This document shows, piece by piece, positions 1 through 7,578 of a DNA stretch of 8,048 nt. Position 1 is the first letter of the stretch, and the number at the start of each line of letters is the position of its first letter. A model generated the notes under the pieces. It saw only the letters and a list, made by a program, of their open reading frames with translations, made no database searches and was not told where the DNA came from. Location: the NCBI GenBank assembly GCA_021798655.1, contig JAJZFE010000126.1, forward strand, positions 1-8,048, in the 5' to 3' direction. The translations under genes and the position numbers were made by a program. The DNA is from Acidobacteriota bacterium (lineage in GTDB: Bacteria > Acidobacteriota > Terriglobia > Terriglobales > Acidobacteriaceae).

Positions 1-800
1 CCAGGCGTGGGGAAGGCGGTGATCTCAACGTCTACGGCGAGGCCTTCGAGCGGGAGGTCGGGGTTGGCGGGTTGCCAGTCGCGCAGGGTGTGGCGAGCCT
101 CCTCGCCCAACATGCGGTGCGGGGTGTCGGCGGCGGCGGGGAGCTGCTCGTCGCCTGCTGCTATATAGATAGTGCCGGTGATGCGCTCGTCGAGCGGGGT
201 GACGTAGTTGCCGACAGGGGCGGCGGGGTCGCGGTGGTTGTGGGGGCGGGCGTAGTGGAAGATGCCGACGACGGTGGGGTTGCGGCGGGTGAGGACGCGG
301 GCGATGCGGCCGGAACGACGGCCGTCACGAGCGGGCGGAGCCTCGTCGACGAGGACGAGATCGCCCTGCATGGCGCCGTTCAGCTCGTTGGGGGGGATAA
401 AGATGTCGCCGTCGCGGGTGGTGGAGGCGGATTCCGGGCGAACAAAACCGAAGCCGTCGCGGTGGAGGTCGAGCTTGCCGCTGACGAGCCTGTCGCGTGA
501 CGACCTGACTGTGTCCTCCATGCCCCGGAAGGGGTGAAAACGGGGGGTACGTTGGTCGCTAGTGGCTACATCCGTCGGTTCATTGGGATTTCCCGGAATT
601 GCCCAGTGATCTTCGCCGGCGCGGCGGAGTTCGCCGCGGGCGACCATGCGGGTGAGCTGCTCGACGAGGAGGCGGCGCTCGCGGCCGCCGCCCAGGCCGA
701 GTTCGCGGACGAGCTGCTTGTAGCCGGCGCGTTGATTGGCGGAACGGGCGATTCTATTGAGCAAATCGCGGTCTGAGCGGGGATAGGGGGTTCGCGCCAT
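1..800 (-). CDS. rnr: Ribonuclease R (N-terminal 266 codons; 3' end outside window)
   Basis: Three-prime to five-prime exoribonuclease of the RNB family, which degrades structured RNA in the cytoplasm. The minus-strand frame is open from the ATG at 800 to the window edge. Residues about 10-69 fit the winged-helix domain found at the N-terminus of RNase R, ending EDHWAIP. After a linker, residues 106-215 look like the first cold-shock OB fold, with GFGFVRPE, GDIFIPP, GAMQGDLVLV and GRIARVLTR; the sequence then runs on into the second, with LEGLAVDVEI near the edge. The catalytic RNB domain and S1 domain would lie beyond position 1. The ATG at 800 gives the full winged-helix domain; its ribosome binding site is weak (AAGG about 12 bases upstream). 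Family recognition is by motif only, and RNase II-like relatives are less likely because of the N-terminal helix-turn-helix. Confidence 0.88.
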   Translation of the reverse strand, partial: MARTPYPRSDRDLLNRIARSANQRAGYKQLVRELGLGGGRERRLLVEQLTRMVARGELRRAGEDHWAIPGNPNEPTDVATSDQRTPRFHPFRGMEDTVRSSRDRLVSGKLDLHRDGFGFVRPESASTTRDGDIFIPPNELNGAMQGDLVLVDEAPPARDGRRSGRIARVLTRRNPTVVGIFHYARPHNHRDPAAPVGNYVTPLDERITGTIYIAAGDEQLPAAADTPHRMLGEEARHTLRDWQPANPDLPLEGLAVDVEITAFPTP

Positions 801-1104
801 CGGTTGAGTCTGCCTTGAGATGAGGATACGCGGAGCGGAGGCCGGTGGGGCGGATGCCGATGCTGAGGCGGTGTAACTGGGGAGTTAATGCCGGAAGAAG
901 GTGGTTACTAAAAGTGGTAGTGCTCTCCCTAAATGGGAAAGTGGCGTCCATGACATAGGTAATGGTTACGGAATGGAGTAGTCGTATCCTCTTCTGACAT
1001 ATGGACTTAGCTTTGTTTCGCCGATACCTTCATATCAGTCAAGCAACACGACGCGACATTCTGTACCACCTAAATCTGAAGTTACCTGCCAAGGAGAAAA
1101 TACC
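801..1104. other. Divergent intergenic region between rnr and the peptide gene
   Basis: This gap separates the minus-strand rnr from the plus-strand peptide gene, so it should hold promoters for both. I cannot name a convincing -35/-10 pair for either. A TTACTA at 905-910 followed by AAGTGGTAGT at 912-921 is the most structured piece; related elements lie in front of the membrane protein gene at 1336-1361. A 65-codon minus frame starting at 951 runs into rnr out of frame and has no family resemblance, so I do not call it. Confidence 0.5.
1091..1096 (+). promoter_or_regulatory. Ribosome binding site of the small peptide gene
   Basis: AAGGAG lies eight bases before the ATG at 1105. It is a near-perfect Shine-Dalgarno sequence and one of the best in the window. 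It is a main reason to accept the 58-codon frame as a gene. Confidence 0.8.
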
Positions 1105-1281
1105 ATGAAGAACAACCTCATCCGCCTCTTCGTCCTGTCCCTCACCGTTGCCGGTTTCGGCGCTGCCTCGGTTTCCGCTCATGCTCGGACGACGAACAAG
1201 GCTGCTGTTGCTCCGTCTGGGATCATGGGCTCTCAGCCTCTGTGCGCGCCCTGGGGTGGCAACACCTGCGGACTCGACTAA
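1105..1281 (+). CDS. Small secreted peptide with C-terminal cysteine pair (58 aa)
   Basis: I do not recognise a family. The 58-residue product begins with a textbook signal peptide: MKNN and an Arg at residue 7, a hydrophobic core to about residue 23, and a likely signal peptidase I site after A-H-A at residue 27. The predicted mature part is about 31 residues, basic at its start (RTTNK) and ending PLCAPWGGNTCGLD, with cysteines at 47 and 54 that could close a small disulfide loop. A strong AAGGAG site precedes the ATG. The next gene, 98 bases downstream on the same strand, encodes a seven-helix membrane protein. No obvious terminator lies between them, although the membrane gene may have its own promoter. 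Roles as a signalling, structural or toxic peptide are all open. That it is translated is fairly likely; its function is unknown. Confidence 0.72.
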   Translation: MKNNLIRLFVLSLTVAGFGAASVSAHARTTNKAAVAPSGIMGSQPLCAPWGGNTCGLD

Positions 1282-1312
1282 TCCCACCTGCTGAAGCCGA
1301 TTTTGATTCATC

Positions 1313-1342
1313 TTGCAATCCCTCGCCGATTACCATTACTAT
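1313..1342 (+). promoter_or_regulatory. Candidate promoter of the seven-helix protein gene
   Basis: TTGCAA at 1313-1318 and TACTAT at 1337-1342, separated by 18 bases, resemble a sigma-70-type promoter. The -10 matches four of six consensus bases and the -35 is partial. The -10 lies inside a perfect inverted repeat, which would suit an operator. Prediction by eye only. Confidence 0.35.
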
Positions 1343-1348
1343 GTAGTA
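1337..1348. promoter_or_regulatory. 12-bp inverted repeat TACTATGTAGTA, possible operator
   Basis: TACTA and TAGTA are exact reverse complements around a TG centre. The element ends 31 bases before the start codon of the membrane protein gene and overlaps its candidate -10. The half-sites recall the TGTAGTA-type half-sites of BlaI/MecI repressors, but the spacing here is shorter than in those operators, so that comparison is weak. Downstream, AAGTGGTAGTTACT (1352-1365) carries further TAGT/ACT pieces. Confidence 0.4.
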
Positions 1349-1366
1349 TGCAAGTGGTAGTTACTC

Positions 1367-1371
1367 GGGAG
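1367..1371 (+). promoter_or_regulatory. Ribosome binding site of the seven-helix protein gene
   Basis: GGGAG eight bases ahead of the ATG at 1380 supports that start. Confidence 0.6.
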
Positions 1372-1379
1372 ATTACGAC

Positions 1380-2324
1380 ATGAGCGTAAAGATGCTTCTT
1401 GAATGCGCAGAGATCGCTGGTATTGTGGTGTGCCTCTCTGTGCTATCGGTCATGTGGCGGACGAAGCAGATCTCTAAGTTCAAAGCGCTCGCTTTGTACG
1501 TTTTGTCACTCGCAGTTCTTGAGTCGATTCAAGTACCGCTTCTATTTTTTAGGGCAGAACTTGGCATCAGCAAGATGCTTGATTACAAAATACTCTTCTA
1601 CTCCTCAGAAGTTCTCTCGCTGGTCGGAGTGATTTTAGTGCTTGCAATCCTTTATGGGGTGTTTCACGAGGCAATGCGACCCTTGAAGGGTCTGCAACGC
1701 ATGGGCACGATGGTCTTCAAGTGGGTCATTGCGGTATCGAGTATTCTGGGTCTGGTTATCGCGTTTGGACCACATATCCTCTCTTCTGGCAGCACTGCGG
1801 ATGTTGCCTTGACTACGGTTATCGAGCGTGCACAGGAGGGCGTCAATGTTCTGATGCTTTGCCTCCTGCTGTTCGTGTGTGTAGCGATCAAGCCGCTTGG
1901 GATGACATACCGCAGCCACGTTTTCGGCGTGGCCCTAGCACTTGGCATCATCTCGGTGACGGAGTTGGTGCAGTCAGCATGGTTCTACACAGGTGCGGCT
2001 CACTCGGTCTATTCGCCGATCTACCTGTTTGGCACGGTTGGGTATCTGTGTGCGCTCGGTACGCTGGGTGTTTGGATGGCGATTCCGGAGCCGGAGCGGA
2101 AGATGATTCTGCTGCCGACGACATCGCCGTTCTTCCACTGGAACCGCATCTCCGAGGCGCTGGGTGATTCGCCTGGGCAGGTGGCGATTGGCTTCAAGCC
2201 GAGCATGATCTCGCCGATTGAGGTGAAGATGATGACCGCCATGAGCAAGGCGAAGCGCGAGCGCGAGAGTGCTGCCGCTGCTGCTGAGGTTCATGAGCAG
2301 ATGGAGTCGGTTGCGGTTTCGTAA
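1380..2324 (+). CDS. Seven-transmembrane protein of unknown function with cytoplasmic tail
   Basis: I do not recognise a named family with confidence. The 314-residue product has seven hydrophobic helices at about residues 6-26, 35-57, 74-95, 113-134, 153-171, 180-202 and 213-235. Basic residues cluster in the loops after helices 1 (RTKQISKFK), 3 (HEAMRPLKGLQR) and 5 (KPLGMTYRSH), which puts the N-terminus outside and the roughly 80-residue tail inside. The tail carries PTTSPFFHWNRISEALGD (246-263) and then a charged, Ala-rich helix (MSKAKRERES and on), possibly a coiled coil or docking segment. No histidine kinase, GGDEF or other output domain is present. The gene sits directly downstream of a secreted-peptide gene and ends at an intrinsic terminator. 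It could be a receptor, an export partner or something unrelated; only the membrane topology is visible. Confidence 0.85.
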   Translation: MSVKMLLECAEIAGIVVCLSVLSVMWRTKQISKFKALALYVLSLAVLESIQVPLLFFRAELGISKMLDYKILFYSSEVLSLVGVILVLAILYGVFHEAMRPLKGLQRMGTMVFKWVIAVSSILGLVIAFGPHILSSGSTADVALTTVIERAQEGVNVLMLCLLLFVCVAIKPLGMTYRSHVFGVALALGIISVTELVQSAWFYTGAAHSVYSPIYLFGTVGYLCALGTLGVWMAIPEPERKMILLPTTSPFFHWNRISEALGDSPGQVAIGFKPSMISPIEVKMMTAMSKAKRERESAAAAAEVHEQMESVAVS

Positions 2325-2345
2325 GCTGGTGATTTGTGTTTGAGG

Positions 2346-2381
2346 CGGACAGGGCGATGGTTGCCCTGTCCGTTTTCGTTT
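2346..2381 (+). terminator. Intrinsic terminator after the seven-helix protein gene
   Basis: A perfect 10-bp stem (CGGACAGGGC / GCCCTGTCCG) with a 7-base loop is followed by TTTTCGTTT. It starts 21 bases after the stop codon and closes the peptide/membrane protein unit. Confidence 0.9.
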
Positions 2382-2714
2382 GCGGGGGTGGTGTGGTTCC
2401 GGGCTGTAAGAAGATGAGAGCGGTTCACGTTCAGGTATGGATGTCGTCCTATGAGACGCGCTTACAGCGCTCTGGTTCTGCCTGCCTCCTAACCTAGGCT
2501 TACGGCCCAGGCTGGTATGTGCCGCGCCTTTGGCGCTGAAACCGTGACGCTGTAGGTGTATGAGAAATGTGCTCGTGCGAGGGTTTCTCCGCTGCGCAGC
2601 GCGGTGAAGCTGCGCTGCTTCGGTCGAAACGGCATTGTTGTGGTTTGTGGGTGTGTAAGTGTGATGGATGTCGGGGCGATGTACTCTTGAGGCTGGCGAG
2701 GTGAGGAGAGTGCG
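2382..2714. other. Intergenic region with a cluster of small hairpins, no gene
   Basis: No open frame here shows coding character. It holds a series of short inverted repeats: GCGCT-TAC-AGCGC (2458-2470), CCTAGGC/GCCCAGG with one mismatch (2493-2511), GCGCC-TTT-GGCGC (2524-2536), the palindrome CGCTGCGCAGCG (2590-2601) and GAAGC/GCTTC (2606-2621). The layout resembles a REP/BIME-type intergenic element. A single window cannot show that it is repeated elsewhere. Confidence 0.5.
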
Positions 2715-6862: not shown

Positions 6863-7065
6863 GGGGTACCCCCTACCCCCCCCTATTTTTGCTTGATCTC
6901 TGGAATCAACGAGTTACGCGGTGTTGTGGCTGCAAAATATTGATTGCAGAGATTTTAGGGGCATAATATTCAAAAGATTGGGGTTACGGGTGGATTGGCT
7001 GTAAGCTGTTGATTGCAGATGGCTTACGGCTATAATATTCAAACGATTGGGGTTAGGGTCGTTTG
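6863..7065. repeat. Intergenic tandem repeat, 69-bp period, headed by GGGGTACCCC
   Basis: Three bases after the DedA-like stop lies the palindrome GGGGTACCCC (6863-6872), then a C-rich run and CTATTTTTG. Two well-matched 48-base blocks follow at 6942-6989 and 7011-7058, both opening GATTGCAGA, containing ATAATATTCAAA and GATTGGGGTTA, and differing at only about 11 positions. The bases before each block also align (GGCTG then AA, then TTGATTGCAGA), giving a 69-bp period from about 6928. Each unit seems to be two diverged halves of about 34-35 bases (AATATT ... GATT ... AGGG / TTACGG). A partial third unit (GAGTTACGCGG) precedes the array. A 69-codon minus frame over this array (6914-7123) only reflects the 23-codon period and is not called. 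Confidence 0.8.
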
Positions 7066-7098
7066 CTTTCCAAGGCCGTTGTGCCGAAGCGAGGAAGA

Positions 7099-7175
7099 CG
7101 CAGATTCCCTTCGGGAATGACAAGCAAAGGGGGATGAGTCCAAGCAGATTCCTCCGCTGCGCTACGGGATGACAA
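7099..7175. repeat. Two copies of a hairpin-forming dispersed repeat (GCAGATTCC type)
   Basis: Copy 1 (7100-7123) opens GCAGATTCCC and closes GGGAATGACAA, forming the hairpin ATTCCC-TTC-GGGAAT (7104-7118). Copy 2 (7144-7175) opens GCAGATTCCTCCGC and closes CTACGGGATGACAA, with a longer GC-rich insert between the arms. The shared ends and variable middle are typical of REP-like units. Two worse copies lie near 7500 and 7553. Confidence 0.65.
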
Positions 7176-7466: not shown

Positions 7467-7499
7467 GAGAGAGGAGATAGGGAGAGAGGAGAGAGCGGA
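7467..7499. other. Purine-rich tract
   Basis: GA-rich run of about 33 bases on the plus strand, interrupted only by a T and a C. It is a low-complexity sequence with mirror-like GAGAG blocks. Confidence 0.5.
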
Positions 7500-7578
7500 C
7501 GCAGATTCCCTGCCGGAGTGACGAACAAAGACAGGTAATAGCAAGTGAAAAGACGCTGGTTCCCTGCGGGTGAGAGGC
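7500..7578. repeat. Degraded copies of the GCAGATTCC-type repeat
   Basis: CGCAGATTCCC then GAGTGACGAACAAAG (7500-7530) matches the units at 7100 and 7144. ACGCTGGTTCCC then GGGTGAGAGG (7553-7577) is a weaker relative. The base pairing between the arms is partly lost. Confidence 0.5.

Follow-up and report, generated by a model that had tools for sequence, protein, structure and literature searches.

The stretch of DNA analyzed here (the window; 8,048 nucleotides, contig JAJZFE010000126.1 of assembly GCA_021798655.1, from a bacterium of the Acidobacteriaceae) carried a 58-codon gene for a secreted peptide and, 98 nt further along the + strand, a 314-codon gene for a seven-helix membrane protein. 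We consider it probable that the peptide, once exported by the Sec system and trimmed, functions as the ligand for the cognate seven-helix protein, and that the pair makes up a two-gene ligand/receptor system. By this mechanism, the precursor encoded by the short gene would be exported by Sec and cut by signal peptidase, after which a protease encoded elsewhere would trim it and release a C-terminal core peptide. The core would bind the periplasmic side of the cognate seven-helix protein, whose conserved cytoplasmic tail would relay the change to a partner whose gene lies outside the pair; passage of the peptide may be between cells or within the envelope. Both open reading frames (ORFs) lay on the strand and at the coordinates given by an initial annotation of this DNA, which had proposed a pairing for peptide signaling or peptide export. 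The conservation of both genes was favorable to that proposal, and signaling fitted the data better than export, although the function itself is one that we infer.

Read by eye, the peptide leader combined a lysine/arginine N-terminus with a hydrophobic stretch and an A-x-A site, and was followed by a spacer and a C-terminal core containing Cys47 and Cys55. The leader and the cysteine pair were kept in nine close relatives (72–93% identical), and the pair was present in 10 of 10 close sequences; the peptide ORF is therefore real, and its earlier description as a 58-codon gene with a ribosome site (AAGGAG) and a signal peptide was borne out. Both traits were also found in all 45 diverse peptides from which a profile was built, although the rule by which these were chosen itself required two cysteines. 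The core of the window peptide is perhaps 12–17 residues long and is probably closed by a Cys47–Cys55 disulfide. The profile matched 2183 proteins (E ≤ 0.01; 4662 candidates), showing that the peptide is conserved beyond the window strain, and among the best 120 of these matches the named ones were "hypothetical" or "uncharacterized", save one automatic label.

Among the 7996 candidates scored, at least 1773 were relatives of the seven-helix protein (E ≤ 0.001). This protein had been described as an orphan of no recognized family; neither pair protein gave a significant match in Pfam, NCBIfam, PHROGs or PADLOC, which agrees with the second half of that description, but with so many unannotated relatives the protein is no orphan. 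Taking the taxonomic ranks of the Granulicella paludicola record (G002), and with genome samples that overlap, a relative was present in 360 of 398 genomes of the family, 171 of 200 of the order, 19 of 101 (narrow profile) or 143 of 250 (wider profile) of the class, and 44 of 297 of the phylum. One record named as a Verrucomicrobia bacterium (L011) had an acidobacterial-type pair beside rnr, and its name may be wrong. Searching genome contigs with a single sequence gave no match; an alignment-based scan succeeded and yielded 17 loci.

A short ORF lay directly upstream of the seven-helix gene in all 13 loci examined among these 17. Two of the remaining four (L014, L015) start inside or at the seven-helix gene, and the other two (L016, L017) correspond to L032 and L031, each of which has a peptide. 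Under a strict rule (ATG start, ribosome site, leader, two cysteines near the end, no more than 700 nt upstream), a peptide gene preceded 102 of 130 seven-helix genes; the corresponding figures for the controls were 22 of 2600 (dinucleotide shuffles) and 3 of 216 (other long ORFs). The peptide finder had been tuned after examples had been seen. Broken down by relatedness, the strict rule was satisfied by 55 of 62 relatives classed as close, 39 of 42 as middle and 8 of 26 as distant. With a looser rule and inspection by eye, a peptide was found at 126 of the 133 loci with room for one, lying downstream rather than upstream in 10 distant relatives, so that a short secreted ORF is the normal companion of seven-helix homologues. 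Added by hand to the 126 were L047 (edge, partial), L054, L116, L117, L126 (no cysteine), L131 and one partly masked locus; repeated identical proteins and the contig-edge loci L029, L030 and L134 were excluded before counting, and downstream candidates at L046, L047, L048 and L145 were discarded as antisense artifacts. A supposed class of low-scoring homologues lacking a peptide was abandoned, as the peptide turned up downstream. By the looser rule and inspection, the peptide was missing at L114, L145, L146, L148, L149, L151 and L152. L114 lies second in a tandem of two seven-helix genes, and the one in front (L153, in G327) follows the one peptide gene there.

Wider relatives behaved similarly under a loose rule applied without a control. 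Among those of about 260 aa, a leader-bearing ORF lay upstream in 19 of 20 loci (none at L187); in a further set, comprising half of 30 listed loci, such an ORF lay up- or downstream in 12 of 15 (none at L224, L235 and L236). The distant loci L235 and L236 had in common a downstream ORF of about 70 aa starting MDLVKA. In the reverse direction, peptide-profile matches were found in 40 of 40 genomes, which had been picked for having a seven-helix gene and some of whose peptides were in the profile, and 80 of the 88 matches lay within 2 kb of a seven-helix gene. The other eight comprised three peptides at L156 that precede a clear seven-helix relative (E 1.6e-22), one at L155 that precedes a similar-looking but statistically weak membrane gene (E 0.41; 12.8 bits), and four weak partial matches.

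A tree of 133 seven-helix proteins placed the seven-helix gene in at least four genomic settings: next to gyrB (42 rows, of which 36 had a peptide), next to infC and/or rpsA (37 rows), next to rnr (20 rows, among them the closest relatives of the window) and next to a CBS-domain gene (4 detected). These neighbors were confirmed, and the other 30 rows were unassigned. The pair has therefore been relocated but not separated, and the ten downstream-peptide cases formed one tree group in which the genes were still adjacent. We regard the linkage as more than inherited synteny. Three genomes had two pairs each (L096/L139, L135/L136, L137/L138), and there the type of peptide, by our reading, tracked the seven-helix clade and not the genome, as expected if pairs duplicate as units. 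In one seven-helix subclade, a conserved protein of about 180 aa was encoded directly downstream (L156:3180-3704 on the - strand, L187–L191, L195 and, weakly, L155). Two of these proteins were tested and gave no real Pfam match; this third gene is a possible candidate for an output partner in that subclade. In 17 of 21 rows of the infC setting (e.g., L057:2-340 on the - strand), the opposite strand carried a response-regulator receiver gene, 1.4–2.5 kb upstream of the seven-helix gene and beyond infC. The receiver gene was absent from the window and not adjacent to the pair, and was not used as support.

The pattern of substitution pointed to the core as the functional unit of the peptide. At 24 loci with 2–4 detected tandem peptide genes, silent differences (pS) in the core stood at 0.306 and replacement differences (pN) at 0.017, totals that pool non-independent pairs, while the leaders at the same loci differed by 24.0% (silent) and 5.8% (replacement). 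Core copies were identical as protein in 16 of the 24. Clear exceptions were L094 (0.27) and L150 (0.10), and the core at L067 had no silent difference; up to six peptide matches in succession were seen in G141 by genome scan. Twelve precursors of relatives contained repeated cores within a single chain: four copies of AMPIPTCSPGAKC in L102, three of ADGGAPTPPLPPPSG in L199, five of NMPVFPTPPA in L221, and two copies each in L123, L133, L193, L194, L195, L196, L198, L205 and L206. Where counted, the copies differed by silent changes only (7–12 nt of 45 in L199, 9 of 36 in L194); those in L221 differed by 0–1 nt and are therefore uninformative, and those in L193 and L198 were not comparable, the search pattern being too long and matching once in each. 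Precursors built in this way are reminiscent of yeast alpha-factor, and their design suggests excision and use of the repeated segment.

The cysteine pair expected at the C-terminus near homologues was common but not universal, as some peptides had Cys-free and often proline-rich repeated cores. The cores formed a graded series from Cys-free DGGxPxPP through DGGPIPxCPP to the window type, CxPxxxxxCG. The idea that the pair is essential was abandoned, given Cys-free cores in L123, L126, L133 and many of the relatives of about 260 aa. The leader-bearing upstream ORF of L126 ended in a Cys-free, Pro/Thr-rich C-terminus, a degenerate or alternative core. These cores bear on the possibility that the pair is an internal stress gauge, in which the seven-helix protein reads the redox, proteolysis or folding state of a periplasmic peptide. 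Such a sensor would suit the cysteine pair of most cores, the window, where no dedicated outer-membrane route was seen, and the single close seven-helix homologue found in 12 of 15 genomes, although a wider profile added paralogues in many. We think it unlikely, as Cys-free repeated cores and multi-core precursors better fit a diffusible ligand.

The seven-helix protein was predicted by AlphaFold2 to have helices at residues 3–27, 35–56, 65–98, 103–128, 138–173, 180–205 and 213–234, plus a C-terminal tail. The first model had a predicted local distance difference test score (pLDDT) of 74.6 and a predicted template modeling score (pTM) of 0.67, and a second, built with 112 sequences, reached 78.9 and 0.72. 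In 132 aligned sequences, the mean number of lysines and arginines in loops 1–6 was 3.3, 1.3, 1.7, 0.5, 2.4 and 0.5, respectively, which fits an N-out/C-in topology, although loops 2 and 3 differ little. The seven helices, N-out/C-in orientation and cytoplasmic tail of the initial annotation were thus recovered by prediction. Positions kept in at least 70% of the same alignment were mainly Trp, Gly, Phe, Leu, Pro and Arg, with W254 in the tail present in 99%, and included no His or Asp; Glu237, Ser120, Ser249 and Cys161 were kept in 70–89%. The family had no obvious active site. A sequence search of the PDB returned chance-level matches only. The predicted fold weakly resembled G-protein-coupled receptors (GPCRs) and rhodopsins: GPCRs predominated among the fold-search matches listed, with two microbial rhodopsins, one per search (ranks 46 and 40), and no SWEET, PAQR or kinase sensor appeared among those listed, an absence that excludes nothing.

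These residues also bear on whether the pair serves export, maturation or anchoring, with the seven-helix protein trimming, folding or modifying the peptide or carrying it across the inner membrane. Constant gene linkage would be expected of such a pair, N-out seven-helix transporters of the SWEET type exist, and the residues kept in 70–89% leave some room for a catalytic role. A weak MtN3_slv match (E 0.078) was obtained for one of 24 wider relatives; the window protein had no MtN3_slv or PQ-loop match, nor a significant one to any family in the databases scanned. With a peptide that brings its own Sec-type leader, and with strongly kept positions that lack His and Asp, we judged this role improbable. 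Least likely of all is an antimicrobial or toxic peptide whose core acts on competitors while the seven-helix protein shields the producer: bacteriocin loci, too, can encode small secreted peptides rich in Cys or Pro, in tandem copies and with a polytopic partner, but such loci are patchy in distribution, whereas the seven-helix gene is nearly constant in one family (the 360 of 398 genomes), often lies by housekeeping genes in settings clustered on the tree, has no export or modification gene beside it among the window proteins scanned, accompanies protein-identical core copies at most multi-copy loci and has a strongly conserved tail that immunity would not need.

The ligand/receptor reading invites comparison with known systems. 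The precursor of yeast alpha-factor has a leader, a pro-region and several identical cores, and the acidobacterial peptides share the secretory leader, the pro-region and, in relatives only, the several identical cores per precursor; their partner, like the class D GPCR Ste2, is by prediction a seven-helix N-out/C-in protein. No sequence relation to alpha-factor or Ste2 was found, however, the acidobacterial genes are adjacent, and the precursor in the window contains just one core, with a cysteine pair. The Ste2 structure stood at rank 18 in the fold search, a weak match (Foldseek E 0.19, TM 0.34). The helix number and orientation of GPCRs were matched by prediction (models and loop charges), and no significant match to a GPCR-family model in Pfam was obtained for the seven-helix family proteins tested. 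We know of no heterotrimeric G proteins in bacteria. As a serious but tentative possibility, Acidobacteria may have a pheromone system of the fungal mating type, in which one to five identical cores are released by protease and act on a cognate GPCR-like receptor that lacks an enzymatic domain and signals through its tail.

Class II bacteriocins have a double-glycine leader and a dedicated ABC exporter; here, the leader was of the Sec type and no ABC gene was present among the window proteins scanned. Sensors of the 7TMR type (7TMR-DISM, HisKA_7TM, MASE3) likewise combine a seven-helix sensory unit with a cytoplasmic C-terminus, but the acidobacterial protein has no output domain and gave only a non-significant match to a MASE3 kinase (E 0.19). 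We know of no peptide partner for YqfA or YhhN, two further bacterial proteins with seven helices. In the parts of the source available, both have a GPCR-like arrangement and conserve putative active-site residues, His and Asp among them, with the motifs SxxxH, D and HxxxH in YqfA and the PAQR (CREST) family (PMC4602095). The seven-helix family lacked these motifs, having no His or Asp at the 70% level in the 132 aligned sequences and no Pfam match. The Agr system (AgrD-AgrB-AgrC) likewise encodes a short exported peptide beside a polytopic membrane protein, as described in the available part of a 2026 review of quorum sensing (PMC13220807); the acidobacterial pair differs in its Sec-type leader and in having no kinase domain, as no C-terminal histidine kinase domain of Agr/HPK10 receptors was found in the seven-helix protein with Pfam or NCBIfam. 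No AgrB-type peptidase or response regulator lay beside the pair among the window proteins scanned; recurring neighbors in relatives were identified in part only. The available part of the same review gives peptide receptors as membrane histidine kinases or cytosolic RRNPP proteins, and "seven transmembrane" and "GPCR" occur 0 times in the text of the review (PMC13220807). Nothing on such a peptide/seven-helix pair was present among the titles and abstract openings returned by searches of an open-licence library. If peptide signaling is the function, its principle is familiar and the components are not.

The layout of the pair suggested separate control of its genes (Table 1). The element before the peptide gene took the form T[AG]GACTTA-N-TAxxxT across loci, and the motif T[AG]GAC[TC]T[AGT] was present in 43 of 90 upstream regions (shuffles: mean 3.2, maximum 9), some of which begin at an inner tandem peptide copy. 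The pattern before the seven-helix gene was present in 73 of 90 intergenic regions (shuffles: mean 10.8, maximum 18). Both patterns were picked after the sequences had been seen and tested against mononucleotide shuffles; a sigma-70 consensus scan of the window found neither element. The seven-helix gene probably has its own promoter too, and the pair is therefore not a simple operon. This promoter-like element lies inside an intergenic hairpin with a mean z of -2.77 over 90 loci (55 below -2), in which the ribosome site was paired in 63 of the 67 loci with a recognized site; in the window, the hairpin had a folding energy of -19.0 kcal/mol (z -1.8), with the site 80% paired. Translation of the seven-helix protein from read-through RNA would then be poor, and we infer that the protein is made from its own start instead. 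The terminator reported after the pair folded as a stable stem; it escaped a simple scanner, probably on account of G-U pairs that continue the stem into the T run. The available part of PMC7074687 contained nothing on expression of the pair.

Table 1. Features of the peptide/seven-helix pair and its divergent neighbor in the window.
Feature	Position	Strand	Basis
RNase R-like gene (rnr), N-terminal part, outside the pair	3..800	-	Divergent neighbor running off the window; OB_RNB and CSD2 domains
Promoter-like element, peptide gene: TGGACT (1002-1007), 17 nt, TACCTT (1025-1030)	1002..1030	+	Aligned upstream regions
Shine-Dalgarno AAGGAG of peptide gene	1091..1096	+	Sequence; aligned upstream regions
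Secreted-peptide precursor gene, 58 aa	1105..1281	+	ORF; nine relatives; profile family
Sec signal peptide MKNNLIRLFVLSLTVAGFGAASVSAHA, putative cleavage after residue 27	1105..1185	+	By eye, A-x-A rule; leader conserved
Predicted core GSQPLCAPWGGNTCGLD, residues 42-58, Cys47 and Cys55	1228..1278	+	Cys pair conserved; multi-copy core constraint
Predicted hairpin hiding GGGAG ribosome site (1367-1371) in read-through RNA	1309..1382	+	Fold of 90 loci
Promoter-like element, seven-helix gene: TTGCAA (1313-1318), 18 nt, TACTAT (1337-1342)	1313..1342	+	Pattern
Seven-helix membrane protein, 314 aa, predicted N-out/C-in	1380..2324	+	ORF; relatives; two models; loop charge
Predicted cytoplasmic tail, residues ~236-314, conserved PEPxR and SPxxxWNxxxEALG	2085..2321	+	Alignment
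Intrinsic terminator closing the pair	2342..2376	+	-26.2 kcal/mol, z -6.35

Domain scans identified genes for YdjM, DUF6580, TIGR03435, MoCF and VTT-domain proteins 3' of the pair. The earlier statement that no kinase, protease or ABC transporter is adjacent agreed with these scans, which covered seven proteins of the window and the divergent neighbor and detected no such domain in any of them. Directly past the terminator of the pair, positions 2493-2537 (+) matched the Acido-Lenti-1 RNA (RF01687) in Rfam, with 39.4 bits against a gathering threshold of 37. Two neighboring 69-nt direct repeats, 77% identical, lay 3' of the VTT-domain gene (6920-7057), and a dispersed 33-nt repeat (GACGCAGATTCCCTTCGGGAATGACAAGCAAAG), 85% identical, occurred at 7097-7129 and 7498-7530.

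Acidobacteria are described, in the excerpts of published sources available, as abundant in soil and hard to grow, with communication that is poorly known, and one review mentions acyl-homoserine-lactone genes for them. If the ligand/receptor reading is true, a seven-helix peptide receptor with no enzymatic domain would represent a new class of bacterial receptor and would bear on how often peptide/seven-helix signaling arose. Communication among soil acidobacteria would then become directly testable; the pair itself is small and its genetics are simple.
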